A stretch of DNA of 42,476 nucleotides, taken from a virus. A model generated the notes under the pieces. That model did no database searches. It worked only from the letters and a program-made list of their open reading frames with translations, and had not been told where the DNA came from. The stretch spans positions 1 through 42,476 of the IMG/VR virus record IMGVR_UViG_3300042465_004086; one strand, given 5' to 3'. The translations under genes and the position numbers were made by a program. Shown piece by piece: positions 3,337 to 42,143 of the stretch (position 1 is its first letter; each line of letters begins with the position of its first letter).

Positions 3337-3498
3337 CTACGGGTGAAAGATCAACACCAGCGCCAGGACGACGAGCGTCGCCGCGGCCAGCCAGACTGCG
3401 GTGCGCGCGGTCTTGCGTATGTCGGCCAAGGGGTCATCGTAAAGGCCCCCATGTTCGACCAGGTACGCAATCCTTTGTTGAATCTCTTCGTTGCTCAT
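3337..3498 (-). CDS. Membrane microprotein co-transcribed with the repressor, 53 aa
   Basis: A 53-residue leftward frame whose ATG overlaps the repressor stop codon (AAATGA). It starts MSNEEIQQRIAYLVEHGG, has an acidic amphipathic N-terminal half and one C-terminal hydrophobic helix (about residues 34-51, AVWLAAATLVVLALVLI). A single-pass membrane protein is expected. As it is translated with the repressor it would be made in lysogens, so superinfection exclusion or immunity is a reasonable guess without direct evidence. Confidence 0.65.
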   Translation of the reverse strand: MSNEEIQQRIAYLVEHGGLYDDPLADIRKTARTAVWLAAATLVVLALVLIFHP

Positions 3499-3920
3499 TT
3501 CCCGCTCCCTCGGACTAAGTCGGTCAGTTTTTTGATGTGCTGCTCGTCGATCCGACCCAGCAGCTTGGCTCTGTCGTACGTCAGTTGAACGAGGCTGGCA
3601 TACGTTTCAGGGTCCGGTCGGAGACCCGCGTCACGTAATACAGTGGCTACTGCCTTAACACAGTCGCTTAATGCCTGGTCATTGAGCTGCGTCGCACCGC
3701 CAGGGTGGTCTTGGTCGAGCCAGCCAATCGGCAGCCCCAACTTACTTTCGACCTCGCGCGCTACTTTTTCGCTGATCTCGCGAGAGGGGTGGGGCCCAGC
3801 GATCTGGGCGATGTAGCTGCCGTTCGAGTGGCCAAGCTTCCGGCTCAGGCTCGTAGGCCCACCCCATTGGTTGATCAGGGCGCGCAGGTTTACCCGGCGG
3901 GTGTCATACACAGACTTCAT
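3495..3920 (-). CDS. CI-like phage repressor (HTH)
   Basis: A 141-residue leftward protein. Residues about 10-75 form a Cro/C1-type helix-turn-helix domain: LRALINQWGGPTSLSRKLG, then HSNGSYIAQIAG as the recognition region, ending LGLPIGWLDQDH, a signature often seen at the end of phage repressor HTH domains. The C-terminal part (80-141) is helical. There is no LexA-type Ala-Gly/Ser-Lys autoprotease domain, so RecA-driven cleavage is unlikely. It faces a rightward Cro-like gene across a 66-bp intergenic region with divergent promoters, the classic lysis/lysogeny switch layout. Its targets are probably the TAGCAnnTGCTA palindromes (inference). Confidence 0.8.
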   Translation of the reverse strand: MKSVYDTRRVNLRALINQWGGPTSLSRKLGHSNGSYIAQIAGPHPSREISEKVAREVESKLGLPIGWLDQDHPGGATQLNDQALSDCVKAVATVLRDAGLRPDPETYASLVQLTYDRAKLLGRIDEQHIKKLTDLVRGSGK

Positions 3921-4860: not shown

Positions 4861-5084
4861 TGGACGAGATCAAATACCAGGCCGGGATGGCCGAATACTT
4901 CTACCCCGCGGCCGGTGACCCTCGGCCCAGCGCCGGTGCCAAGGTCCAGCTGCTCACGATCGGTGGGATCCACACAACAGGGCCCTGGGCAGATAACGGC
5001 TTCTACGTTGCCTGGCTGCCATTGCCCAAACGCAACAAACGAAAAGAGGCTCTGATTGCAGAACAGAAGGGCCTTTCTTTTTGA
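4860..5084 (+). CDS. Hypothetical protein, 74 aa
   Basis: Starts MDEIKYQAGMAEYFYPAAG in a TGATG overlap with the preceding gene. A beta-rich central part (AKVQLLTIGGIHTTGPW) and a lysine/arginine-rich C-terminal third (LPKRNKRKEALIAEQKG). No family recognised. It is the last small gene before the promoter and structured RNA at 5081-5207. Confidence 0.65.
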   Translation: MDEIKYQAGMAEYFYPAAGDPRPSAGAKVQLLTIGGIHTTGPWADNGFYVAWLPLPKRNKRKEALIAEQKGLSF

Positions 5085-5111
5085 CCATAGGACTTTGCAT
5101 TCTGCTAAAGT
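5081..5111 (+). promoter_or_regulatory. Rightward promoter for structured RNA and primase-helicase
   Basis: TTGACC (5081-5086), 19-bp spacer, TAAAGT (5106-5111) with TGC directly in front (extended -10 TGCTAAAGT). The site TTGCATTCTGCTA resembles the early operator palindrome with one extra base in the spacer, suggesting repressor control. The expected start near 5115-5118 coincides with the first base-paired nucleotides of the structured RNA. Confidence 0.6.
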
Positions 5112-5207
5112 CAAGTTGTCACACTATCAATCTGCAAGCCCTGGAGAGGGCCCCAACTGGGTGCAGCCCAGGGTGTGACAACCGGGGTTCTCTCCAGGGC
5201 TTTTTTT
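5112..5207 (+). ncRNA. Structured leader/small RNA with intrinsic terminator and possible pseudoknot
   Basis: Bases 5136-5154 (AAGCCCTGGAGAGGGCCCC) pair with 5184-5202 in an unbroken 19-bp stem (two G-U pairs) followed by seven Ts, a very strong terminator. Its loop contains a small hairpin (CTGGG 5157-5161 with CCCAG 5167-5171) and then GTGTGACAAC (5173-5182), the exact reverse complement of GTTGTCACAC (5115-5124) at the 5' end of the transcript. Either a pseudoknot or a switch that competes with termination is possible. It could be a free small RNA of about 90 nt or an attenuator before the primase-helicase. It is not a riboswitch or known RNA family I recognise. Confidence 0.75.
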
Positions 5208-5252
5208 ATGAAAGCCGAAAATGGTTTTTACTTTTAGCTGTGGGCACATCGC

Positions 5253-7247
5253 ATGACGAACGTGGCCCACATCACTCCCCACTTGCGCAACGTTGAAGCC
5301 CCTTCCGCGATTCGTGATCTCCAGGCCTGGGTCATTTGGCGGTTTGAAGAAGTGCCCGGTGGCGGCAAACCCCGCAAGGTCCCTTACTACGCGAACGGTG
5401 GCAAGCGCCACGGCGAGCAGGGCGGACCCGCCGACATCAGCAATCTGGTCACGTTCGACGCGGCCAAAGCCGCGGCAGCTCGCCGAGGCTTCTCCGGTGT
5501 CGGCTTCGCAGCCCTGCAGCAGTGGGGCATCTGCGCTCTCGATTTCGACAACTGCATCACCGGCGGCAAGATCCACCCTGAGGTTGAGGCGCTGCTCGAG
5601 AACACTTACGCGGAGTACAGCCCCAGCGGCCAGGGGATCCGCGTGTTCTTTAAGGGCCAGCTCGGCAACGGGAAGAGCATTCGCGGCGAAGACTTCGGGA
5701 TGGAAGTCTTCAGCACCCGCGGATTCGTTACGTTTACAGGGAATACCCTCGACATCACTGAGCTGCTGGGCAACGACGACGCGATCGCAACCCTGAGCGA
5801 TGAGGTCTACGCCCTGCACAAGTCGCGTTTCGCGCGTGAGCACCAGCCTGTGCTCGAGACGGGCTCATCGGGTGAGCCTGCAGGCCTGACGGGTGCACAG
5901 ATCCAGGAATGCCTCGACGCACTGCCGCCCGACTTGCATTACGACGACTGGCTGCAGGTGGGCATGGCGATCCACTGCGAGACCCGGGGCGAGGGCCTCG
6001 AGGTCTGGGACGAGTGGAGCCAGCGCTCGGGCAAGTACTCGAGCCGTGAGTATGTCGAGGAGCGCTGGCGCTCGTTCGGCAAGGGCGGTGGGGCCCAGGT
6101 CACGGGCCGCAGCCTGGTGCGCTTGGCCAACCAGCACGGCGGTCGCATCACTCTCAGCGCGCCGGCCTCGGCCGATGAGTTCGAGACCCTGGTCGAGGAT
6201 GTCCAGAACGTGGACACCCCCGAGTCGCTGCGCTTCCAGGTCATGCCTGCCCATGAGTTTGCTTCTGTTGCGCCGCCCAGCTGGGTGATCAAGGGCGTGC
6301 TGCCCCAGGCCGAGCTCGTGGTCATGTACGGGGCCAGCGGCTCCGGCAAATCGTTTATGGCCCTCGACATGGCCGCGGCGATTGCCAGGGGCGTGCCATG
6401 GCGTGGCTGCAAGGTGCGCAAGGGCAGGGTGGCCTACATCGCTGCGGAGGGCGCAGGTGGCTTTCGCAAGCGCCTGGTGGCCTATGCACAGCACAACCAG
6501 GTCGATCTCTCGACGGTCGACATCGGTGTCATTCACGCGGCACCCAACATGATGGAGAAGACCGACGCTGTGGACGTGGCCAAAGCGGTCAAGGCCTGGG
6601 GCGGTGCGGACCTGATCATCGTCGACACTTTTGCCCAGGTCATGCCAGGGGCCAACGAGAACGCAGGCGAGGACGTGGGCAAGGCGCTCACGCACTGCAA
6701 GCGCATTCACGAAGTGACCGGGGCCATGATCATCCTGATCCACCACGCAGGCAAGGATGCCAGCAAGGGCGCCCGGGGCTGGTCGGGCCTGCGCGCTGCG
6801 GCCGATGCAGAGCTCGAGGTGGTGCGCGAGGCGACGGGCCGATCACTGAAGCTCACCAAGTCGAAGGACGGCGAGGATGGCCAGGTGTGGGGCTTTGATC
6901 TTGACGTGGTGCAGATCGGGGTTGATGAGGACCTCGATCCGATCACGAGCTGCGTGGTGATCGAGGCGGCAGTGCCAGCGGGTGGCCCGGTCAGGAAGCT
7001 CGGCAAGAACGAGAAGGTGGTCAACGAGGTTCTGCAAGAGATGGCCCAGGCGCAGACCTCTGGCATTGAGATTAAGCCGGTGCTGGAGGAGGCCGCGCGC
7101 CGAATGATGGCTCGCGATGGGGTCGAGGCCGACAAGAAAGGGAACTACAAAAGCAATGCACGGCGGGCACTGAACAAGCTGTGCGAGGGGGGTGACGAGG
7201 CGCCTTACTGGCTTGATCCAGACACCAACACGATTGAGGTGATGTGA
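5253..7247 (+). CDS. Bifunctional primase / RepA-like replicative helicase
   Basis: A 664-residue replication protein. Residues about 20-170 resemble an archaeo-eukaryotic-type primase (prim-pol) domain, including WGICALDFDNC and EYSPSGQGIRVFF. A PriCT-2-like linker follows (about 210-285: DDWLQVGMAIHCETRGEG). The C-terminal half is a RepA/AAA_25 hexameric helicase with Walker A GASGSGKS (about 360-367), Walker B LIIVDTFAQ (about 453-461) and IHHAGKD motif. It would unwind and prime the phage chromosome. The start at 5253 lacks a good ribosome site; a nine-codon frame (5208-5237) lies just upstream and might couple translation. It sits alone between the structured RNA and the CCTTCA repeat cluster. 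Confidence 0.9.
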   Translation: MTNVAHITPHLRNVEAPSAIRDLQAWVIWRFEEVPGGGKPRKVPYYANGGKRHGEQGGPADISNLVTFDAAKAAAARRGFSGVGFAALQQWGICALDFDNCITGGKIHPEVEALLENTYAEYSPSGQGIRVFFKGQLGNGKSIRGEDFGMEVFSTRGFVTFTGNTLDITELLGNDDAIATLSDEVYALHKSRFAREHQPVLETGSSGEPAGLTGAQIQECLDALPPDLHYDDWLQVGMAIHCETRGEGLEVWDEWSQRSGKYSSREYVEERWRSFGKGGGAQVTGRSLVRLANQHGGRITLSAPASADEFETLVEDVQNVDTPESLRFQVMPAHEFASVAPPSWVIKGVLPQAELVVMYGASGSGKSFMALDMAAAIARGVPWRGCKVRKGRVAYIAAEGAGGFRKRLVAYAQHNQVDLSTVDIGVIHAAPNMMEKTDAVDVAKAVKAWGGADLIIVDTFAQVMPGANENAGEDVGKALTHCKRIHEVTGAMIILIHHAGKDASKGARGWSGLRAAADAELEVVREATGRSLKLTKSKDGEDGQVWGFDLDVVQIGVDEDLDPITSCVVIEAAVPAGGPVRKLGKNEKVVNEVLQEMAQAQTSGIEIKPVLEEAARRMMARDGVEADKKGNYKSNARRALNKLCEGGDEAPYWLDPDTNTIEVM

Positions 7248-19652: not shown

Positions 19653-21408
19653 CGACCGCCAGGTCCGCACTCAGGCACTGCAGCCTGTCTTCCAGAACAC
19701 GCCCGACGTCAGCTCGGGCGCCCGCGCGCTGGCGCAAGGCCTGGGCCAGGTGGCCGACGTCGCGGATCGCATCGATCTGCGCGCTGCCGAAAGCAAGGCC
19801 AACGAGGTCGACACCCAACTGACCCGCGCGTGGGACCAGTGGGAAGACGACAACCGAGGCAAGTACACCAACCAAGCCGCGGACGGCTACACCAAAGCGG
19901 TGGATGCCTGGTGGAAAGACGCCGCCAAGACTTACGGCGGGAGTCTTGACGCTCGCGCCCAGGCCATGGTCGGCAAGACACTGTCGCGCCGCCAGACGCT
20001 TGCGCTAGAGCAGGCCGGCAAGCACGAGTTCACTGAAAAGGAGCGGTACGCCGACAGCACGACCGAGGCCGCCGCTAACACCGCCACCGTCAACGCGCTC
20101 AAGACGGGAGACTACGCGGGTGAAGCCCAGCGCATCCGTGAGCTGACCGACGAGCAGGGGCGGCGCAAGAACTGGGACAAGGACCAGCGCGACGCCGCGC
20201 GCAACGCGCGCCTCGGCCAGTTCAACACCGCCGTCATCGCGCAGCTCGCCGAGAAGGACGCCGCCGCGGCGCAGGTCTACTTGAACGGTGCGATCGAGCG
20301 CGGCGAGATCAAGCCCGATCAGCAGCCCCGCCTGGAGGCGATCGTCAAGAGCGAGGCCGACAACCAGTTCGCTACGCAGAAGGCCGCTGAGCTCGCGACG
20401 CTTTCCCTCAAAGAGCAGCTGGCCGAGGCGGCCAAGATTACCGACCCGCAGCGCCGCGAAAAGACGATCACCCAGATCAAACTCAACACCGCCTTGGTCC
20501 GAGAGGCCGAGGCCGAGGCCGAGCGCCAAGCCTCCGACCAGGCCTGGCAGATGTTTTCGCGCGGGCAAAAGATCCCCGAGACGATCCTCTCCAGCATGAA
20601 CGGGCGCGAGCGCGCGCAGCTCGCCGAATCGCAGCGCACCCGCGCTGATCGCCTGGCTGCCGGCACACCGGTAAAGACCAACATGCTTGCCTACATCGAC
20701 GTCCGCGAAAAGCTCGCCCGGGGTGAGACCGTGGACCTGCGCGCTTACACCGAGAAAATTGGCAAGGCCGAAATGGAGCAGCTGCTCGACATCCAGGGGG
20801 CCGTGCGCACCGGGGGCGTCAAGCAGGACAGCATGCTTACCGACGAGGGACGCATCAACGCTGCGATCGTGAGCTTGGGTATCGACAAGCGCAAGAAGCC
20901 CGAGCAGGCCGCCATGATCACCAACGAAATCGACCGCCGCGTGCGCTCTGCCTCCGCTGCCAAGGGCGGCAAGGACCTGACCGCAGACGAAAAGCAGGGC
21001 ATCGTCGACCGCGTTGTGCTCGACAAGGTCTTTGTCTCTGAATTTGGCCGCGATCCACAAAAGCCTTTGATTTTGCTTACGCCGGAGGAGCAAAAGAACG
21101 CCTACGTTGAGGTCAATGGTGAAGAAGTAAAACTCTCATCCATCCCGCTAAATGACCGCCAGCAGATCATCGCCTCGCTGCAACGCAGGGGCGAACCTGT
21201 TTCCGAGCAAGCGATCGCTGAGGTCTACGTGCGGGTGAAGAAACCCGCCGCTGCACCTGTTGCTGCACCTGTGGCCGCACCCGCTGCAGCACCCCAAACC
21301 CGTGCCCCGGCCCCAGGCGCAGCGCTTAGGCCGCCTTCGATCTACGCATCCGCGGAAGAGTGGGCGGCATACCGCGCAGCTCAAGCGCAGAAAGCTGCAA
21401 AACAATGA
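19630..21408 (+). CDS. Internal virion protein (T7 gp15-like position), 592 aa
   Basis: The start MPTVPLYNDRQVRTQALQP at 19630 lies inside the end of the HNH gene; the upstream in-frame opening is HNH sequence in another frame. The protein is long, helical and charged (ALEQAGKHEFTEKERYADST; KEQLAEAAKITDPQRREKTI), with a Pro/Ala-rich C-terminal linker (PAAAPVAAPVAAPAAAPQ). This matches ejected core proteins of podoviruses. It overlaps the giant protein gene by ATGA. Confidence 0.78.
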   Translation: MPTVPLYNDRQVRTQALQPVFQNTPDVSSGARALAQGLGQVADVADRIDLRAAESKANEVDTQLTRAWDQWEDDNRGKYTNQAADGYTKAVDAWWKDAAKTYGGSLDARAQAMVGKTLSRRQTLALEQAGKHEFTEKERYADSTTEAAANTATVNALKTGDYAGEAQRIRELTDEQGRRKNWDKDQRDAARNARLGQFNTAVIAQLAEKDAAAAQVYLNGAIERGEIKPDQQPRLEAIVKSEADNQFATQKAAELATLSLKEQLAEAAKITDPQRREKTITQIKLNTALVREAEAEAERQASDQAWQMFSRGQKIPETILSSMNGRERAQLAESQRTRADRLAAGTPVKTNMLAYIDVREKLARGETVDLRAYTEKIGKAEMEQLLDIQGAVRTGGVKQDSMLTDEGRINAAIVSLGIDKRKKPEQAAMITNEIDRRVRSASAAKGGKDLTADEKQGIVDRVVLDKVFVSEFGRDPQKPLILLTPEEQKNAYVEVNGEEVKLSSIPLNDRQQIIASLQRRGEPVSEQAIAEVYVRVKKPAAAPVAAPVAAPAAAPQTRAPAPGAALRPPSIYASAEEWAAYRAAQAQKAAKQ

Positions 21409-24400
21409 CAAACCCCTACGACGAAGCTGTTGATGCCTGGAAAGAAAACCAGCCGAAGCCAGCGGGCGCCCCCGCGGTCAACCCCTACGACGCGGCCGTC
21501 ACCGAGATTGCCACCGAACGGCAGCAACGGGTTCGCACCGTCTTCGAGAAGGCGCTAGAAACAAATCCCGATCAGGCGGCAGAGGCGCAGAAGCTGGCCA
21601 ACAGTACCGGCTTGTCTTTGAATTTTGTCGAGCGCAACCAGGAAGAAGTGCGTCGCAAACAGCAGGCACGCATGTTGGACCTGGCGCGCATGGCGCAAGA
21701 GTCGCCAATTCTTGCGCGTCAGCTGGTTGATCCGTCGTTCACCAAGCAGGCGCACGATGACATCGGCAACCTGGCCAACGTCGAGCGGACCTTTACGGGT
21801 ACGCTCAAAGACATTGGCACCGTCGCGATGAAGGGTGCCGTTGGTTTGCCGCAAGCGATTGTCGGCCTGGCCGACCTGGGTATTGCTCTTTCCCCGGTTT
21901 CACTTGCGGTAAGGGGAATGCGTGGTGAACCCCTTTTGGGTGGCGGCTATCTTGGCAAAGGGCTTCAAGCTCTTGGCGTTGACTTCAAACGCACGCAGGA
22001 AATTCTGTCTGGCGAGGAGGGCGAGACCCTGCTGAGTTATAGCCCCGCCCAGCAGGCTGCAAACAAGCGCGTCGCGGATGTAGAGGGATTTACGCAGACC
22101 CTTTCCGCGATGCTAGAGAATCCCAGCACGATCGCCACTTTGGTAGGGGAGTCCTTGCCTCAGATGTTAGGCGGGGCGGCTATCGGCAGAACGGTACTGG
22201 GTCTCGGTGCAAAGGCCGTGGGCCCGGCGATGATCGGGCCCAATCTCCCAGGACTGATGGCGCGCCAGTTTGGCGAGAAGACAGCAACCCTGGTGGCCAG
22301 CGCGTTCGGTGAGGGTGCAATCGCTGGGGGCTACGCCGCCGAGCAGTTTCGTGGTGAGAACGCCGACGGACTGATTGGTGCCAAGGAAACTCTTGCTGCA
22401 CTAGGTACCGGTGCAGGCACCGCGCTGTTCAGTGGTTTCGGTGGGCGCGTCGCTCGCCGCCTGGGCATCGAGGACATCGACACCGCGCTGGTGTCACGGG
22501 GCCTGAACCCTGAGGTCGCCGAGACAATCAAGCGGGGATTTGTTTCGAGCCTGGTCAAGAGTGGCATTTCCGAGGGGCTGTTTGAGGAAATGCCACAGTC
22601 CATCCAAGAGCAGATGTGGCAAAACTGGGCCAACGACAAGCCGCTTGGCCAAGGGGTTGGAAAGGCCGCGGCGCAGGGTGTTGTTGCCGGCTTCGCGATG
22701 GGCGGAGGTTTCCAGGCAATCAGCCGTGTGCGCGACCATTACAGCGAGATCAACACCGCGCAAACCAGCGCCGAGCAACTTGTTGACCTGTTCAACGCGG
22801 CCGCGCCGTCAGCGCTTCGCGAGCGCAACCCCGAACAATTCCGCACTGTCGTCCAGGCCATGGCCGACAACGCCGAGGGTGCACCCTCGGAGATCTACAT
22901 CGATGCCGAGGTCCTGAACCAGCTGGCGCCGGAGGTCCTGGCCCAGCTGCCGCAGTCCGTGCGCGATCAGATTCCCGACGCGCTTGCGGCCAACGATGTG
23001 GTCTCGATCCCGACGGGTGACGTGCTGACGATTGCGCCAGGCACGCCCCTCGAGCAGGTACTGGTCGAGAATGGCCGCGTGGGTGACCCACGGGCAATGA
23101 CCCAGGTCGAGGCCAACCAGGCCGCCGAAAAGGCGCAGGAGTTTCTTGCGCAGGAAGCTCAGAAAGTAATCCAGCAGGCCGCGGACCAGCAGGCCATGCA
23201 AGAGTCGAGCGACCGAGTGAAGCAGGGCGTGCTCGACCAGCTCAACACCGCGGGCCGGTTCCGTGCGCAGGTGAACGAGGCCTACGCCACCTGGACCGCT
23301 GCGTTCTACACCACCATGGCTGGCCGCATGGGCATGACGCCCGAGCAGATGGCCGAGAAGTATCCGCTGCGCATCGCGGCTCAGACGGGGCAGGGTGGGG
23401 TGCTCAACGCCGGCGGTGGCACGCTGGCCGACGTCACTGCGCAGTGGGACGCGGCCAGCATCACCGGCGACGTCTATGAAAATCGCGGCGTCATCACCTT
23501 GTCGCGCATCGTCGTGCCTCAAGGCCAGCGCGAGCAGGGTACCGGCACCGCTGCGCTGCAAGCCTTGGTTGACTACGCCGACCGCACGGGCCAGCGCGTC
23601 GTGCTCTCGCCGTCGGCTGACTTTGGCGGCAACAAGAAACGGCTGATGGAGTTCTACAAGCGCTTCGGGTTTGTAGAGAACAAGGGGCGCAACAAGGATT
23701 TCGCGGTCTCGGAGACGATGATCCGCGAGCCGCAGCAGGTGCTCAACCAGACGCCCGGCGCGCTGCCCGAGTGGTCGTTGGAAAAAGCCAAGACGCGCGT
23801 CACAGACGCCATCAAGAAGGCCGCCATCGCGCTCTCGCCGAAAGCCTCGCTGGCGCGTCGCAACTACGAAAAACTCGACGCCATCTTCAAGAAGGTCCCT
23901 GACCCCCTGGCAAGCGAGGACGCCTGGCGCAAGTTCATGTCGTTGCTGGTGGCCGACAGCAGCGTGCTTGGCGTGCCCTACAACGCGCTCAAGTACGCGC
24001 AAGATCCCCAGGCCGTGGCCGACTATCTCTCGCGCCTGCGCCCCGACCAGCTCGCCTCGCGCCGTGCAGGTTTCGAGCTCGGTGCAAAGATCCGCCAGGA
24101 ATACATCGAAGGCCGCGCCACGCCGGTGATCACGGGGCGCCTGCTGTTGTGGGCCATGCTCTCGCGCAAGGCCGGCGCCTACCCGCACGAGGCCGCCTAC
24201 ATGGACCTGGTCAACGGTGGCGTCGACCAGTGGATTGAGAAGGCCGTCAACGGCACCTGGACTGAGGCCGACAGCGAAGGCTACGTCAAATGGTCGTCGG
24301 AGTTCATGGCGAGCAAGAAGGGCGGCGTCAGCCCTTCCGCGGGCGTGACCTCCAACGCCAACGACTTCGGCCGCATCCTGCTGACCAAGATGTCTCAGAA

Positions 24401-27400
24401 GGACGAGAACGGCGTCACGCAGCTCACGCGCCTGCACAACTTCATCGCCGACCAAAACGTGTCGACCGACCAGGTGCGTCGCGAATTCTTCGCGCTGGGC
24501 GATAGCCTGGGCATCCAGAACAAGGTGCTGTCGTTCGCGCTGCTGGTAACGGGTCGCTGGGACACGCTGGTCCTCGACCGCGTGCAATTCACTCACCTGT
24601 GGGGCGACCAGTACCGGGAGCGCGCAGGCCAGCGCAACATCTACGACAACGGCCTGGCCACCGCGGGAAAGGGTCACTTTGGATTGGCCGTGTACGAGGC
24701 GCTGGCCCGCGGCATGACACAGTCGGTGCAAAAGGGGTACGAGCTCGCCGGCCTGACCGATCAAGGCGATGGCACGCTTGGTGCGTTCCACTGGGATTCG
24801 TGGTTGATTGAATCGTCGCAGGCCATCGGCCACCCGACGATTGAGGCGCTGGACACCCAGACGCCACGCCCCGACCTGGCTGTGCGCCAGGGCAAATTTG
24901 ACACCTACGGCTACAACTTCGAGTACCGTGCCGACGGCCAGTATCAGATCCCCCTGCTGGACGGCAGTGGGTATATAATTTTAGCACCTGCTGAAGCTGC
25001 TGAGTTTCAGGGCAGGATCAGTGACCCCAAAGAAGGGGTGGTGCCAAAAGACTTCAAGGTCTCGCAGAATAAGGCGAGCCCATGGGTTGATGCCGAAGGA
25101 GTAAACCGTGGCAGATACGACGAAATCCTCAACGAGTACGGTCGACGCGCTGATGCAGCAGATGTCGCTCCTGCCGGGCTTGCCGATGCAGGCGGACCCC
25201 TTCAACAGCGTGCAACCGATGCCGGGCGAACAGAACCCGCAGCAGACACCGCCGCAGGACAAGACGACGGAGCTCTAAACCAAGGCCCCCGCGGCACGTT
25301 TAACCCAAGCACCCTCGAACTGGCGCTCAACGAGAACGCCGACCTCTCCACGTTCCTGCACGAGACCGGCCACTTCTTCCTCGAGGTGATGGCCGACCTG
25401 GCGACACAGCCAGGGGCCCCCGCGGATATTCAGCAGGACATGGCCGCGCTGATGAAGTGGTTCGGCGTGCCCGACCTCGCAACCTGGAACAGCTACACCC
25501 TGGACGAGAAGCGCCCGTACCACGAGCGCTTTGCAGAATCCTTCGAGCAGTACCTCCTTGAGGGCAAAGCCCCCAGCCTGGAGCTGCAGCCGCTGTTCCG
25601 TAAGTTCCGCGCGTGGATGCTCAACGTCTACAAGTCGATCAAAGCGTTCGTGGACAGCCGCCAGGGCGCCACCGATATCCAGTTGTCCGACGAAGTGCGC
25701 CAGGTGTTCGACCGGATGCTGGCCAGCGAGGCGCAGATCGCCGAGGCCAACGAGGTCGCAGGCTTGCTGCCTGATCAGGACGCCGATGCCGAGGCGGTGG
25801 AGAGACTCAGCGCCCGGTCACTGCGTGATCTGAAGTGGACCGTGAACGCCCGCAGCAAGGCGATCAAAGCATTGCAGAAGCAGGCCGCCGAATTGCGCAA
25901 GAGCGTGGAGGAGGAGGTCACTGCCGAGGTTGAGGCCCAGCCGGTCTACGCCGCGCGCAAGTTCCTGCGCACCGACACCAAACTCTCAATCGCAGCACTT
26001 GAAGAAGCCTACACCGGCGAGGGCGACCGCTACGCACTGCTGGACTGGAAGCCACTGGTACAACAGAAGCTCGCCGGCAAGGACGGCGCACACCCCGACA
26101 TCGTCGCTGATATGTTCGGGTTTAAGAACGGCGACGAATTGGTGCAGGCCTTGTTAACCGCCGAGCCTATTGCCGATGTGATCGCCGGCTTGACCGACCA
26201 GCGCATGCTCGAGCAGCACGGCGACCTGGTCGACCAGCGCGCCATCGAGCAGGCTGCAAACGAAGCGGTCCACAACGAGGCCCGCGCCCGCTCGCTGGCC
26301 ACTGAACTCAAGAGCCAGGCCGAAGCGATCAACGCCCGTACCGACACCGGTCAGCTCAACGCGGCAGGCAACAAGATCACGGTCAACGCGCTGATGGAAG
26401 CGGCCAAACAGTTTGCCGCCAACGTGGTCGCAGGCACTCCCTTGCGCGACCTCAAGAGCAAAACCGCGCAGCACACGGCCGCCGAGCGACGCGCCGGCAA
26501 GCGCTGGCAAGAGCACACCGCCAAGGGCGAGACGGCCGAGGCAATTAAAGCCAAGCAGGACCAGGTGCTCAACAACGCCGCCGCCAAGGCTGCGCTGGAA
26601 GCCCAGGCCGAAATGCGCCAGATCCTCGAGTTCTTCAAGCGCGTCTACAAGGACGGCAACGAGAAGATCGTCGAGAAGGGCCGCGACCCGGACGTGGTCA
26701 ACGCGGCTCGCGCGGTGCTCGGTGCCTACGGCGCAGCACCCCGGGCCAGCAAGAACGCGATCGAGTACATGGCCCTGGTCGAGAAGAACGACCCGGCAAT
26801 GTTCGCAGCCCTGCAGCCCAGTGTGCAGGGTGCGCTCAACATGGCGCAGCCCCTCGAGTCGCTGACGATGGAGGAGCTGCGCGGCCTGCACGAAGAGATC
26901 CAGGCCATGTGGCACCTGGCCAAGCGCTCGCGAATGATGGAAGTCGACGGCAACCTGATCGACATGCAAGAGGCCGAGGACGATCTCCAGGCCCGCATGC
27001 AGGCGATCGGCGTGCCCGACTCCATCCCGGGAGAGTCCAGCGCCATCACGCCCTCGGAGAAGGCCAAGCGGACGCTGCAGTTCGCCGGGTCCCTTCTGCG
27101 CCGCACGGAACAGTGGGCTGCAGGGATGGGCAATGAGTTCACCCGGCTGGTGTTCCAGCCCGTCAAGCAGGCCGCCGACACCTACCGCGCCGAACGGGTG
27201 AAGTACCGCAAACGCTATCAGGCATTGATCGACACGGTGGCGCCAGCCCTCAAGAAGGGATTGATCGAGGCGCCCGAGCTTGGCTACACCTTCGGCAAGG
27301 GGCACAACGGCATCGGCCACGCCGAGCTGCTGCACGCGATCCTGCACACGGGCAATGAGAGCAACAAGCGCAAGCTGCTGCTGGGCCGTGGCTGGGCGAC

Positions 27401-29135
27401 AGAGAACGCCGACGGGACGATGGACACCAGCAAGTGGGACGCCTTCGTCAAGCGCGCGCAAGACACGGGGCTCCTGACCAAGGCACATTACGACTTCGCT
27501 CAGGGCGTGTGGAATCTGCTGGAGGAGACCAAGCCTGCAGCGCAAAAGACTCACCGCGACGTGTTCGGGCGTTACTTTGCCGAGGTCACTGCCGACAGTT
27601 TCGATACCCCGTTCGGCACCTACGCCGGCGGCTACGTTCCCGCCCAGGCAGACCCGCGCATTGTTCAGGACGCAGCGCTGCGCGACCTGGCCACGACCGA
27701 AAACGAGAACATGTCGTTCTCGTTCCCGAGCACCAATCGAGGATTCACCAAGGGCCGGGTCGAGTACAACCGCCCCCTGATGCTGGACCTGCGCACGATC
27801 GGCCAGCACCTCGACAAGGTGCTGCTGTTCACGCACATGGAACCCGCGGTGCGCGATGTCAACAAGCTGCTCTCGCGCAAGGGCGTGAGCTACAGCCTGG
27901 GCCGCATTGACCCGACGATCTACGCCGGCATGCTGACGCCCTGGCTCAACCGCAGCGCGCGCCAGATCGTCGAGACCCCGATCGTGGGCGATGGTGGCAT
28001 TTCTCGCGTGCTTTCCGTCGCCAGGTCTAGGGCAGGTATGGCGCTCATGTTTGCCAACATCAGTAACACCCTGCAGCAGACAACCGGCTTTCTGACCGCG
28101 ATGGCCAAGCTGAAGGCCGACGGCCTTGAGTCGCAGCTCACTCGGTCGACCGCGATGTTCATCACCAACCCGCGAAAGATGGCCCGAGAAGTGGCGGCTG
28201 CCAGTCCTTTCATGGCGTCGCGCATGGCCAACGAGATCGCGGCAATGAACGGAGCGATGGACGATATCCTCTTGGATCCCAGCCTGTACGAGAAGAGCCA
28301 GGCCTGGGCACAGAAGCACTCCTATTTCCTGCAGTCGGCCATGGCCAACACCATGGAGCCGATCATCTGGACCGCCGGCTACAACGCGGCTCTGGCCAAG
28401 AACATGGACGATGCCGAGGCGGTGAAGTACGCCGATTCGCTCATCCGCCAAACGCAGGGTTCTACCTTGCCGGAGGACGTGAGCCGCATCGAGACGGGCC
28501 CGGCTTACGCTCGAGTGTTCACGCAGTTCGTGGGCTACTTCAACATGATGGCCAACACGAACGCGACCGCGCTCAAGCAAATTGCACAGGAGCAGGGCCT
28601 CAGGAAGGGCGCCGGTAAAGCCCTGGGAATTCTCACGCTTGGCATGATGGCCCCGCTTTGGATGGCGGAGGCGATCGCCATCGCAATGCGCGGGGGCCCT
28701 GAGGACAAGGACGACGACGGCTACCTGGACGACTGGCTCGCTGCCGTGTTTGGCATTGGCACGATCAAGGGCACGATGGCGATGGTCCCGTTCATCGGGC
28801 AGCTGGTCAACGCGTCCATCAACCGGTTCAACAGCAACCCTGCAGACGACAAGATGAGCTTGTCGCCGGCGGTGAGTTTGCTGGAGTCCGCGGTGGGCGT
28901 GCCCATGGACGTCTACAAAGCCATCGCGGACCCCGAGAAGCTCAACGCCCGCAACGCCGTTCGCGACGTGGCAAGCGCGGTCAGCATCGTGACAGGGCTC
29001 CCCGCTATCGCCTTCGCCAGGCCGCTCGGCTACCTGGCCGGCATGGCCGACAACCGCATCGAGCCGACTGGCCCGGCGGACCTGGCCCGTGGCCTGGTGA
29101 CGGGCAGCGCAAGCCCGGAGAGCAAGCAACGCTGA
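21405..29135 (+). CDS. Giant polyvalent internal virion protein (gp16-like position) with GNAT and metallopeptidase-like domains
   Basis: A 2,576-residue protein starting MTNPYDEAVDAWKENQPKPA in an ATGA overlap. Domains in order: helical N-terminus with hydrophobic segments (about 135-300); a GNAT acetyltransferase-like domain (about 685-790, LSRIVVPQGQREQGTGTAAL and FYKRFGFVENKG); a helical region (about 810-1150); a Pro/Ala/Asp-rich linker (about 1235-1290); a zinc metallopeptidase-like motif HETGH (1319-1323) in STFLHETGHFFLEVMADL; long coiled helices; and a hydrophobic C-terminal zone near 2410. Large polyvalent proteins of this type are carried in podoviral heads and ejected into the host. 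No lysozyme-type transglycosylase domain is obvious. Enzymatic roles are inferred from motifs. Confidence 0.85.
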   Translation: MTNPYDEAVDAWKENQPKPAGAPAVNPYDAAVTEIATERQQRVRTVFEKALETNPDQAAEAQKLANSTGLSLNFVERNQEEVRRKQQARMLDLARMAQESPILARQLVDPSFTKQAHDDIGNLANVERTFTGTLKDIGTVAMKGAVGLPQAIVGLADLGIALSPVSLAVRGMRGEPLLGGGYLGKGLQALGVDFKRTQEILSGEEGETLLSYSPAQQAANKRVADVEGFTQTLSAMLENPSTIATLVGESLPQMLGGAAIGRTVLGLGAKAVGPAMIGPNLPGLMARQFGEKTATLVASAFGEGAIAGGYAAEQFRGENADGLIGAKETLAALGTGAGTALFSGFGGRVARRLGIEDIDTALVSRGLNPEVAETIKRGFVSSLVKSGISEGLFEEMPQSIQEQMWQNWANDKPLGQGVGKAAAQGVVAGFAMGGGFQAISRVRDHYSEINTAQTSAEQLVDLFNAAAPSALRERNPEQFRTVVQAMADNAEGAPSEIYIDAEVLNQLAPEVLAQLPQSVRDQIPDALAANDVVSIPTGDVLTIAPGTPLEQVLVENGRVGDPRAMTQVEANQAAEKAQEFLAQEAQKVIQQAADQQAMQESSDRVKQGVLDQLNTAGRFRAQVNEAYATWTAAFYTTMAGRMGMTPEQMAEKYPLRIAAQTGQGGVLNAGGGTLADVTAQWDAASITGDVYENRGVITLSRIVVPQGQREQGTGTAALQALVDYADRTGQRVVLSPSADFGGNKKRLMEFYKRFGFVENKGRNKDFAVSETMIREPQQVLNQTPGALPEWSLEKAKTRVTDAIKKAAIALSPKASLARRNYEKLDAIFKKVPDPLASEDAWRKFMSLLVADSSVLGVPYNALKYAQDPQAVADYLSRLRPDQLASRRAGFELGAKIRQEYIEGRATPVITGRLLLWAMLSRKAGAYPHEAAYMDLVNGGVDQWIEKAVNGTWTEADSEGYVKWSSEFMASKKGGVSPSAGVTSNANDFGRILLTKMSQKDENGVTQLTRLHNFIADQNVSTDQVRREFFALGDSLGIQNKVLSFALLVTGRWDTLVLDRVQFTHLWGDQYRERAGQRNIYDNGLATAGKGHFGLAVYEALARGMTQSVQKGYELAGLTDQGDGTLGAFHWDSWLIESSQAIGHPTIEALDTQTPRPDLAVRQGKFDTYGYNFEYRADGQYQIPLLDGSGYIILAPAEAAEFQGRISDPKEGVVPKDFKVSQNKASPWVDAEGVNRGRYDEILNEYGRRADAADVAPAGLADAGGPLQQRATDAGRTEPAADTAAGQDDGALNQGPRGTFNPSTLELALNENADLSTFLHETGHFFLEVMADLATQPGAPADIQQDMAALMKWFGVPDLATWNSYTLDEKRPYHERFAESFEQYLLEGKAPSLELQPLFRKFRAWMLNVYKSIKAFVDSRQGATDIQLSDEVRQVFDRMLASEAQIAEANEVAGLLPDQDADAEAVERLSARSLRDLKWTVNARSKAIKALQKQAAELRKSVEEEVTAEVEAQPVYAARKFLRTDTKLSIAALEEAYTGEGDRYALLDWKPLVQQKLAGKDGAHPDIVADMFGFKNGDELVQALLTAEPIADVIAGLTDQRMLEQHGDLVDQRAIEQAANEAVHNEARARSLATELKSQAEAINARTDTGQLNAAGNKITVNALMEAAKQFAANVVAGTPLRDLKSKTAQHTAAERRAGKRWQEHTAKGETAEAIKAKQDQVLNNAAAKAALEAQAEMRQILEFFKRVYKDGNEKIVEKGRDPDVVNAARAVLGAYGAAPRASKNAIEYMALVEKNDPAMFAALQPSVQGALNMAQPLESLTMEELRGLHEEIQAMWHLAKRSRMMEVDGNLIDMQEAEDDLQARMQAIGVPDSIPGESSAITPSEKAKRTLQFAGSLLRRTEQWAAGMGNEFTRLVFQPVKQAADTYRAERVKYRKRYQALIDTVAPALKKGLIEAPELGYTFGKGHNGIGHAELLHAILHTGNESNKRKLLLGRGWATENADGTMDTSKWDAFVKRAQDTGLLTKAHYDFAQGVWNLLEETKPAAQKTHRDVFGRYFAEVTADSFDTPFGTYAGGYVPAQADPRIVQDAALRDLATTENENMSFSFPSTNRGFTKGRVEYNRPLMLDLRTIGQHLDKVLLFTHMEPAVRDVNKLLSRKGVSYSLGRIDPTIYAGMLTPWLNRSARQIVETPIVGDGGISRVLSVARSRAGMALMFANISNTLQQTTGFLTAMAKLKADGLESQLTRSTAMFITNPRKMAREVAAASPFMASRMANEIAAMNGAMDDILLDPSLYEKSQAWAQKHSYFLQSAMANTMEPIIWTAGYNAALAKNMDDAEAVKYADSLIRQTQGSTLPEDVSRIETGPAYARVFTQFVGYFNMMANTNATALKQIAQEQGLRKGAGKALGILTLGMMAPLWMAEAIAIAMRGGPEDKDDDGYLDDWLAAVFGIGTIKGTMAMVPFIGQLVNASINRFNSNPADDKMSLSPAVSLLESAVGVPMDVYKAIADPEKLNARNAVRDVASAVSIVTGLPAIAFARPLGYLAGMADNRIEPTGPADLARGLVTGSASPESKQR
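25108..25278 (+). CDS. Candidate overlapping gene inside the giant virion gene, 56 aa
   Basis: In the +1 frame relative to the host gene, GTG 25108 is preceded by AAGGAG at a six-base gap, an ideal ribosome site, and the frame runs 56 codons to TAA (MADTTKSSTSTVDALMQQMS... ending PQDKTTEL). Its composition (Met, Gln, Pro, Ser, Thr) reads like a natural protein, while the host frame here is a low-complexity Ala/Asp/Gly linker. The surrounding bases include the AT-rich GTATATAATTTTAGCA (24971). Chance overlap is possible in a GC-rich genome, so confidence is modest. Confidence 0.4.
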   Translation: MADTTKSSTSTVDALMQQMSLLPGLPMQADPFNSVQPMPGEQNPQQTPPQDKTTEL

Positions 29136-39903: not shown

Positions 39904-39932
39904 AGTGTAGCAACTGCTAAAGGTTAGTGATT
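39904..39932 (-). promoter_or_regulatory. Internal leftward promoter with palindromic operator
   Basis: The perfect palindrome TAGCAACTGCTA (39908-39919) overlaps an extended -10 on the minus strand, TGCTACACT (-10 TACACT at 39909-39904). The -35 (AATCAC) is weak. It lies in the 51-bp gap between the polymerase and the 73-residue gene, so the downstream replication genes may be separately repressible. Confidence 0.6.
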
Positions 39933-42021
39933 ACTCTTTTCTGTACCTCAGTGTTTCAAATCCAGCAGCAGCCAGGGGAATGCCTGGCGCCCATGGCGGG
40001 GGTGTGGACATCATCCGGCTGAGTTCATCGACGTTGTAGTCGTCAGTGTCCGGCACCTCGGTCAGCAGCTCGTCGTGCACAGACAACACGATCGAGTAGC
40101 CGGCCACCTCAATCGCAGGCATGTTGTACGCCAGGATGTCGCGCGCGAACGCCTGGGTGGCGTTCTCGATGAGCTTGCCGCCGTAGGTCTTGAGGCGCTC
40201 CCATTTGCGGGTGTACTGGTTTGTTCCCATGTACGTGATCGAGTTGTCCTCGTCGATCGCCGGGTTGAGGTAGCAGAGGTAGCGGCCGGAGGGCAGGCGA
40301 ATGCGCAGCCAAGCGCCATCACGGCGGGCCTTCAGGTGCTGGCCAATCGAGAACGATTCGCCTGGGTTCTGGATCGCTGCGCGGACGGCTTCGCCGGCGG
40401 CCTTCCACAGCGCAACGGTCGCCGGGTGTGCATCGCGCCAGGCCCGTTTCAGGATCTCGCACGCGACGTAGATCTCGTTCGATAGGCCCAGGGTGCGCTT
40501 GTTCTTCTTGGCCCAACCCCACACGCCCTGCGCATCCTCAAGCGCTTGAGCGCTGGCCGTCTCCCAGACTGCCTTGGCCAGCTCGCCGAGGTCCATGTCG
40601 TACACGACCGCAAAGGTCAGGAACGCAGCGACACCGCCCTCATACCCCAGGCCGAGCTCTTGGACCTTGCCGATCTGCCTTTGGCTCTTGCTGACGTCCT
40701 TCGCATCAACGTTGAACGACCGGGCATAAGCGAGTTTGTAAAGGTCCGCACCCTTACCCTGGTCGAACTCCTCGAATGCTTTGATCTTCCAGCGCTCGCC
40801 GGCCAGGTAGGCCAGGCCGCGGCCCTCGATGTTGGACAAGTCCGCGACATCAAGCTTCTTGCCTGGGGGTGCGACGATGCAACCGCGGATCGCGTTTGCG
40901 GTTTGCTGCATGACGTTGTTGTAGACCAGGTCAGCGCAGCCAGTTTTCAGCGCCTCGACGACTAGGTCCTGCGCTTCCTCATCAAACCCGTACTCAGGGC
41001 GGGGCAGGTTCTGTGGCTGGAAGATCCGGCCCGCCCACCGCGTGGTGCGCAGTGCGCCGGCAAACTGCAGAGTGTTGCGCAGTCGGCCATCCCTCGAGGT
41101 GGCCTTGACCAGGGCTGCGTATTTGGCTGTGCTGGTCTTGGTGGCCTCGAGGCGGATCGACATCAGCAGCCGCACACCGGCCGGAAGATCCGGGTCATCA
41201 AGCCGGCGGCGCAACGTGTCCGCCCGCATGTCGGGGAGCTCGATACCGTAGGCCTCAATGATGTGCTGCAGCAGCTGATCGCGGCGGCTGACACTTGTCA
41301 CCAGGCCGTCGGTTTCTGCGACGACTTCTTCCTTCAGTCGCTTTTGCTCTCGGGCCACAGCGTCAATTGCTGCGTGAGCGAGGTCGCGATCGACGGCGAC
41401 GCCTCGGTCGTTGATGCGCTGATCGAGGTGCCAGAGGGCAAGCTCGGGGTGTCCGGTGCGATAGTTCCAGGTGGGCAGTCGCTGGCTGATTGCACGCATT
41501 GCGACAATGTCCTGGCGGCTGTACTCAAGAAATTCTGCCCACTGTTCGGGGTGTGTTTCACGAGTCGCTCTCCTCAGTGTTGAATTCTTTGCACGGGGTT
41601 TACAAAACAGCTGAATCAGCTCGCGGCCGCGCTTGTCCTTGGCCTGGTCTGCCTCGAGGCCAACGATCTGGCCGATCTTGTCGAGGCCACCCGGCAGGCC
41701 GTGGGCCATCGCCTGGATCATCGTGTCTTGCCAGCGCTCGACAGGGATCTCGAGGCCCCAGCAGTGACGCAGCAGGGTGCGGTCGAACATGCTGTTGTGG
41801 GCGACGATGGTGACTGTGGGGTCCAGGAGGTAGCCCATCAGCTCGGCGGTCTGGTCCTGCCCGTCGCTGGCCGTGCAGTCGTGCACCACCGGCTCGCCGT
41901 CGTCGATCGCCCACTGGGCCACGGTGATCTCTGTCGACTCGTGCTCGGCGTAGGCGTGAGTGCCGGCGCTCTTGAGGTCGCACTCGCTGAAGGTCTCGCA
42001 GTCAAACCATAGAATTGTCAT
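39931..42021 (-). CDS. Family A DNA polymerase with 3'-5' exonuclease
   Basis: A 696-residue replicative polymerase. The exonuclease domain shows FDCET (D7, E9), VAHNSMFDRTLL and YSRQDIVAM (exo I-III). The polymerase domain shows motif A as DLSNIEGRGLAYL (D394), motif B as QRQIGKVQELGLGYEGG and motif C SVHDE (H649-E651). These variants of A and B are normal for the phage subgroup lacking a 5'-nuclease domain. With primase-helicase and SSB it makes a nearly self-sufficient replisome. The ATG at 42021 is preceded by GAACGAAAGC, the same leader as the gene at 3218. Confidence 0.93.
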   Translation of the reverse strand: MTILWFDCETFSECDLKSAGTHAYAEHESTEITVAQWAIDDGEPVVHDCTASDGQDQTAELMGYLLDPTVTIVAHNSMFDRTLLRHCWGLEIPVERWQDTMIQAMAHGLPGGLDKIGQIVGLEADQAKDKRGRELIQLFCKPRAKNSTLRRATRETHPEQWAEFLEYSRQDIVAMRAISQRLPTWNYRTGHPELALWHLDQRINDRGVAVDRDLAHAAIDAVAREQKRLKEEVVAETDGLVTSVSRRDQLLQHIIEAYGIELPDMRADTLRRRLDDPDLPAGVRLLMSIRLEATKTSTAKYAALVKATSRDGRLRNTLQFAGALRTTRWAGRIFQPQNLPRPEYGFDEEAQDLVVEALKTGCADLVYNNVMQQTANAIRGCIVAPPGKKLDVADLSNIEGRGLAYLAGERWKIKAFEEFDQGKGADLYKLAYARSFNVDAKDVSKSQRQIGKVQELGLGYEGGVAAFLTFAVVYDMDLGELAKAVWETASAQALEDAQGVWGWAKKNKRTLGLSNEIYVACEILKRAWRDAHPATVALWKAAGEAVRAAIQNPGESFSIGQHLKARRDGAWLRIRLPSGRYLCYLNPAIDEDNSITYMGTNQYTRKWERLKTYGGKLIENATQAFARDILAYNMPAIEVAGYSIVLSVHDELLTEVPDTDDYNVDELSRMMSTPPPWAPGIPLAAAGFETLRYRKE

Positions 42022-42038
42022 CGGGTGCTTTCGTTCCT

Positions 42039-42092
42039 TTGGCGAGGGGCCGCACCGCAGTGCCGTAGGGGTTAATCCCGGCCCCTCACCAA
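42039..42092 (-). other. Stem-loop in the DNA polymerase leader
   Basis: GAGGGGCCG (42044-42052) pairs exactly with CGGCCCCTC (42079-42087); the flanks TTGG and CCAA extend the stem to 13 bp with one mismatch. It lies in the 5' leader of the polymerase mRNA, with its base about 18 bases upstream of the ATG. It could tune polymerase translation or RNA stability; no family recognised. Confidence 0.6.
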
Positions 42093-42095
42093 AAG

Positions 42096-42119
42096 AGCCC
42101 CCCGTACACTCGGGGGGCT
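42096..42119 (-). terminator. Hairpin terminator between SSB and DNA polymerase genes
   Basis: AGCCCCCCG (42096-42104) and CGGGGGGCT (42111-42119), a 9-bp stem with a six-base loop. On the minus strand it is followed by CTTTT, a short U-tract, so partial termination of leftward transcription after SSB is expected. Confidence 0.65.
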
Positions 42120-42143
42120 TTCACTGATTGTCTCCAACGCATT

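Follow-up and report, generated by a model that had tools for sequence, protein, structure and literature searches.

A conserved structured RNA upstream of phage primase-helicase genes is a probable antisense control element of the C4 type

INTRODUCTION

What might a short and strongly folded RNA do immediately upstream of a phage primase-helicase gene? The question is raised by IMG/VR virus record IMGVR_UViG_3300042465_004086, a stretch of 42,476 bases with podovirus-type genes that was analyzed over its whole length and is called the window below. A preliminary description of this DNA proposed that a promoter at 5081-5111 starts a short RNA ending in a terminator, and that the loop of the terminator stem is complementary to the 5' end of the same RNA. 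The arrangement was thought to resemble no RNA family and to imply either a pseudoknot or a switch that decides on read-through into the primase-helicase gene.

Phages offer several precedents for RNA control at such a position. The CA antisense RNA of N15, whose prophage is a plasmid, lies upstream of the replication (primase-helicase) gene. The CI RNA of P4 pairs with upstream and downstream sites and stops replication-gene expression (PMC4825925). The Gifsy-1 IsrK locus works with alternative folds, and one promoter gives rise both to an sRNA that ends at a terminator and to an mRNA made by read-through; IsrK acts in trans to activate a leader ORF, the stop of which overlaps the start of the following gene (PMC4825925).

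RESULTS

Architecture of the element in the window

The features of the locus, all on the plus strand, are as follows.

5081 to 5111, plus strand: predicted promoter, with a weak -35 box TTGACC (5081-5086), a 19-nt spacer and an extended -10 box TGC-TAAAGT (TGCTAAAGT, 5103-5111)
5115 to 5124, plus strand: a, the 5'-end target site GTTGTCACAC, an exact 10-nt complement of a'; comparable to a1 of the P1 c4 locus
5132 to 5136, plus strand: b, the second target site CTGCA, which abuts S and complements b'; comparable to b1 of P1
5136 to 5154, plus strand: 5' arm of the 19-bp stem S, from folding, with 15 of 20 aligned stem pairs varying on both sides in relatives
5157 to 5171, plus strand: h, a five-pair hairpin (5157-5161/5167-5171) whose loop TGCAG (5162-5166) is b'
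5173 to 5182, plus strand: a', the recognition segment GTGTGACAAC between h and the 3' arm of S; it complements a and, in most relatives, also d
5184 to 5202, plus strand: 3' arm of S, from folding and covariation
5201 to 5207, plus strand: T7 tract, read from the sequence as an intrinsic-terminator tail; present in the window clade only, the other elements having 0-6 T
5210 to 5220, plus strand: d, the GAAAG-NCG RBS region of the leader ORF (the a2 position), which reads GAAAGNCGCC(A)-ATG in relatives
5221 to 5256, plus strand: leader ORF (MVFTFSCGHIA, then stop), whose stop overlaps the primase ATG (5253) by 4 nt; translational coupling is predicted
5253 to 7247, plus strand: primase-helicase gene (PriCT-2 + AAA_25 by Pfam), the presumed controlled gene

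The 19-bp stem, T7 tract, five-pair hairpin and 10-nt complementarity of the preliminary description are all present where it had placed them. The pairing between b and b' is an addition. Stem S comprises 19 pairs (5136-5154/5184-5202), two of them G-U, and the predicted folding energy of the 104-nt strand is -52.7 kcal/mol (z -5.3 against dinucleotide shuffles). Within the window, the stem of the element is the sole plus-strand hairpin with at least 15 bp and a 20-60 nt loop. Forty shuffled windows yielded six hairpins of that size, none accompanied by a 10-nt upstream complement, and the observed a:a' pairing was equaled in none of 400 shuffles of the 24-nt 5' segment.

Transcription presumably starts from the sequence at 5081-5111. 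A strict sigma-70 consensus scan did not call this promoter and its -35 box is weak, but a box like TGCTAAAGT or TGCTACAGT is found at the equivalent position in most homologous elements, amid otherwise unrelated sequence.

Copies that might act in trans from elsewhere were also sought. The window holds no second exact TTGTCACAC besides its own complement. A weak match to the covariance model R1 (see below) at 42017-42126 on the minus strand was rejected as a trans copy, being a different hairpin before a DNA polymerase gene. That hairpin (42026-42100, minus strand; 18 bp, loop 20-60) is itself strong and immediately precedes the GAAAG RBS of the gene for DNA polymerase A (39931-42021, minus strand); among relatives the outer stem (TTTTGGTGAGGG/CCCTCACCAAAA) varies little and the interior is nearly unrelated.

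Homologous elements in uncultivated phages

A BLASTN comparison with annotated phages found nothing related to the window. Searches of viral contigs with the primase, by contrast, returned many relatives in which the same layout, written in different letters, lies upstream of the primase gene. Its order is an extended -10 box, a, b, the 5' arm of S, the b' hairpin, a', the 3' arm of S and GAAAG...ATG.

A covariance model, R1, was built from 14 elements with the window excluded. It nevertheless matches the window element at E 1.2e-10, and it matches further elements in fetched loci and in 17 of 20 whole records, including that of the window. Two pattern scans using a' and d added 13 distinct cores, some of them upstream of unrelated primase-helicases of the VapE-like, D5_N/DUF5906 and Prim-Pol+PriCT_1+AAA_25 kinds. 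Since a' and d were part of the scan pattern, these 13 cores lend no independent support to the a':d pairing.

Overall, related elements precede primase-helicase genes in dozens of uncultivated phages. Two isolates with related primases, Caulobacter phage GB2A and Curvibacter phage PCA1, gave no R1 match. A coarse first-look filter with R1 found no prophage copies in 401 genomes of one bacterial family, among which the seed MAG alone had the primase. Two records that encode tyrosine integrases contain divergent copies of the element (L084 2882-3007 and L085 2882-3007), directly upstream of a distant primase that is 49-50% identical to the primase of L007; these copies also lack the a':d pairing.

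Conservation and covariation of the pairings

Four parts of the layout are conserved, namely stem S, hairpin h with its b' loop paired to b, the pairing between a' and the 5'-terminal segment a, and a second pairing of a', with d, which most relatives have and the window lacks. In alignment A5, a structure consisting of S, h, a:a' and b:b' accounts for 94.3% paired cells and reaches a covariation score of 0.504, compared with 0.166 for shuffled controls and 0.057-0.093 when the partners are slid. Pairs changed on both sides number 23 (13.3 in shuffles), and double-change cells number 100 (33.6 in shuffles). By helix, such two-sided changes affect 15 of 20 pairs in S, 5 of 6 in b and 2 of 8 in a:a'. 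The lower variability of a:a' reflects a GCCAA core common to the A5 members, which in the window is wholly replaced in a (GTTGTCACAC) jointly with a'. Hairpin h carries a compensatory T-A to C-G change between the window and the relative L010, and cross-family matrices indicate that S arms pair best inside their own family.

Among 37 distinct cores, a:a' is kept in 35, b:b' in 36 and a':d in 32, whereas shuffled sequences reach the same thresholds at rates of 0.20, 0.34 and 0.18, respectively. In cores that were found without using d, a':d is present in 19 of 24. Homologous loci lacking either pairing had been named as an outcome that would speak against the element; the retention of a:a' leaves the original claim of a structured RNA before the primase-helicase gene intact, as something real and conserved. 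G-U combinations exceed A-C combinations in S by 38 to 4 cells across relatives, which makes the plus-strand RNA the likely functional form. Judged from these alignments, the element is a conserved phage structured RNA whose sequence turns over almost entirely while its pairings are kept.

The terminator proposed for the locus generalizes less well. The T7 tract is present in the window, but tails among the elements range from 0 to 7 Ts, with at least five in about one-third of loci, and a terminator role for the family as a whole is therefore not supported.

Gene context

In most elements the first ATG lies 10-28 nt past S and opens either an ORF of 9-17 codons or a genuine gene, in many cases one for a DNA methylase. 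Where the primase gene comes next, there is in most cases an overlap of 4 or 8 nt between the end of this first ORF, at its stop, and the primase ATG. The coupled ORF of the window (5221-5256) was read by hand, the automatic ORF script having chosen an earlier ATG at 5208. The best helix between the loop and d is just 4 bp in the window and 6 bp in L010.

Four primase-helicase architectures follow the element: PriCT_2+AAA_25, VapE-like, D5_N/DUF5906 and Prim-Pol+PriCT_1+AAA_25. The link between element and primase is mostly a leader ORF or methylase gene that overlaps or adjoins the primase gene. A DNA methylase-like gene stands between the two, as the first gene under the RBS of the element, in L006, L009, L046, L047, L056, L093 and L249; the calls for L009, L047 and L056 rest on similarity to L093.

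Some other features of the window can be recorded here. Directly 3' of the primase gene is a perfect 16-bp inverted repeat (7279-7294/7368-7383, 73 nt apart), and the structural gene region contains an open reading frame of 2591 codons (21360-29135, plus strand). A gene for a repressor-like protein (phrog_12107; 3495-3920, minus strand) lies about 1 kb upstream of the element on the opposite strand.

Alternative folds and geometry

Computed folding predicts that in nearly all elements, transcripts stopping before the 3' arm of S pair their 5' segment with the loop, and that complete transcripts form S. For the window, this change from the 5'-end:loop fold to S falls between 5195 and 5198. A switch is thus thermodynamically plausible.

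The pseudoknot that had been offered alongside the switch fits poorly with the geometry. Both b, which ends 0 nt from the stem, and d, 6-10 nt beyond it, are located at the base of a 20-bp helix. The top of this helix carries b' and a', which would place these two about 56 Å from the base (20 bp x 2.8 Å). With S closed, b:b' and a':d are hardly possible in cis for this reason, and forcing a':d in cis costs 6-23 kcal/mol of folding energy. A pseudoknot within a single molecule is therefore considered unlikely. The geometry and the energetic cost together favor reading b:b' and a':d as contacts made in trans, or ab:b'a' as an alternative fold.

Comparison with known phage regulatory RNAs

At gathering score, the Rfam C4 model (RF01695) matches neither the window nor 13 homologous loci, although it scores the positive controls P1, P4 and N15 at 69-79 bits. 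Relaxing the threshold to E<=10 gives a single match, in one relative and on the wrong strand. The isrK (RF01394) and c4-a1b1 (RF03163) models likewise have no match in the window or the 13 loci, whereas the P1/P4/N15 controls match. No Rfam family matches the window at gathering, the sub-threshold matches being mostly eukaryotic microRNAs with long hairpins. R1, in turn, does not match P1, P4 or N15. Because each model misses the members of the other, we do not file the element under RF01695 and regard it as one that would work like C4. The earlier view that it resembles no RNA family is accurate for sequence and for Rfam models, but the layout is that of P1 C4.

The annotated P1 record places a1 at 48255-48261, b1 at 48269-48276, C4 at 48343-48419, a2 at 48423-48429 and b2 at 48452-48459, with icd starting at 48470 and overlapping ant1. 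Within C4, b' is in a hairpin loop and a' is 3' of b', both inside an 18-bp stem. The elements described here share the long closing stem and this placement of b' and a', and their upstream a and b follow the a1-b1 order, complement a' and b', and covary (35/37 and 36/37). A site like a2, at the RBS and complementary to a', is present for the family (32/37; 19/24) and missing from the window (4 bp). The overlap of the leader ORF with the controlled gene also has its counterpart in P1, and coupling is predicted. Against P1 and P7 C4, the element has no Rfam match and no UUCG-type hairpin as the first branch inside the closing stem, since the 5' arm of S leads straight to the b' hairpin. No downstream b2 site was evident by eye in relatives. 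In addition, b abuts the core here and is 66 nt away in P1, and the gene concerned is a primase-helicase rather than an antirepressor.

Other systems are similar in part. As with N15 CA, the RNA precedes a primase-helicase gene, and the differences are those noted for P1, the missing Rfam match included. The seqA-seqB-seqC arrangement of P4 CI likewise places an RNA in the leader of a replication (alpha primase) operon with upstream and downstream sites (PMC4825925); it has no detectable sequence or model similarity to the element, in which the downstream site and the RBS of the coupled leader ORF overlap. The IsrK/orf45/anrP locus of Salmonella Gifsy-1 shares a terminated sRNA with a read-through mRNA, alternative folds and a stop/start overlap (PMC4825925), but IsrK has another structure, activates its target and controls an antirepressor.

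DISCUSSION

Taken at the level of sequence, the pairings, their covariation, the order of segments, the gene context, the ORF overlap and the thermodynamic exclusivity of S and ab:b'a' point to antisense control. We consider it probable that the element controls the primase-helicase operon as a compact antisense-RNA locus, of the kind represented by C4 (P1/P7), CI (P4) and CA (N15). The promoter would give rise to an RNA with a folded core (S, h and a', about 67 nt) that presents two recognition segments, b' in the hairpin loop and the neighboring a'. In trans, the core would pair with the a-b site at the 5' end of each newly made leader transcript; in most relatives it would also pair with d, on the RBS of the short ORF coupled to the primase gene. 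The expected effect of this pairing is repression of the replication gene, which most relatives would achieve through occlusion of the RBS. The d site of the window no longer pairs with a', and the output is thus likely to be attenuation, with the core preventing the nascent ab:b'a' structure so that S forms and terminates. The T7 tract similarly suggests that the window clade follows the attenuation branch of this model. Transcription, action in trans, the sign of regulation and a role in immunity or copy control are what we infer from these relationships.

A purely cis-acting attenuator or translational switch, in which ab:b'a' acts as an anti-S structure and the choice between it and S decides read-through or translation of the primase operon with no trans RNA, is an unlikely reading that still deserves serious attention. 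It accounts for ab:b'a' as well as antisense control does, and it draws on the predicted folds, which change from 5' segment:loop to S as transcripts are completed (at 5195-5198 in the window), and on the T7 tail. Its inputs would be RNA polymerase pausing, ribosomes, a protein or a ligand. What it handles less well is that a' also complements d in most relatives, a pairing unfavorable in cis with S closed, and that U-tracts are missing in many elements. Furthermore, no conserved unpaired sequence resembling a ligand pocket is apparent outside the pairing segments.

The remaining explanations seem far weaker. An activating sRNA like IsrK, with the terminated leader RNA opening the read-through mRNA in trans and so turning on the leader ORF and primase, has the Gifsy-1 sRNA and its overlapping leader ORF as precedent (PMC4825925). 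We judge it improbable, given that the structure of IsrK differs, that no Rfam isrK match was found and that an RNA directly complementary to the RBS, as in relatives, is more suggestive of a repressor. Proximity to primase genes of several kinds might instead hint at a hairpin that works in the DNA itself, such as a single-stranded site for replication or for primase loading; with the excess of G-U over A-C pairs and with a conserved -10 box, RBS complementarity and a coupled ORF all indicating RNA, this is very improbable. An ordinary intrinsic terminator with chance complementarity to the 5' end would explain a T7 tract after a GC-rich stem in the window. We reject it as having almost no credibility, since homologs keep the pairings, all of which covary across families, none of the 40 shuffled windows gives such a layout and the T-tract is unconserved.

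If the element is indeed an antisense control locus, its role may lie in immunity, in the copy control of a plasmid prophage or in lytic timing. A repressor-like gene is near the element in 13 of 17 records (the window and 12 of 16 others). Neither the window nor its close relatives yielded a tyrosine or serine integrase, and a role in lysogenic immunity is consequently conjectural. Tyrosine integrases are confined to three more distant records, L084, L085 and L070, the first two of which have the element, and no serine recombinase turned up in the records searched.

To our knowledge, most described cases of RNA-based phage immunity come from enterobacterial phages of the P1/P4/N15 type. A broader and more tentative possibility, which we regard as open to real doubt, is that the elements constitute an undescribed family of mobile self-antisense RNA modules, with repressor and target in one RNA, that define RNA-based immunity groups and control replication initiation in many uncultivated phages. 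Specificities of a' and b' common to phages with unrelated primases might, on this tentative reading, let the modules define immunity groups between phages, including those without an integrase. If the antisense reading itself is correct, RNA-based immunity would reach a broad environmental set of phages through a simpler, self-contained design wired directly to the primase-helicase gene. RNA control of replication timing, of copy number and of the exclusion of related phages would become testable, and the family would supply many naturally orthogonal antisense pairs.
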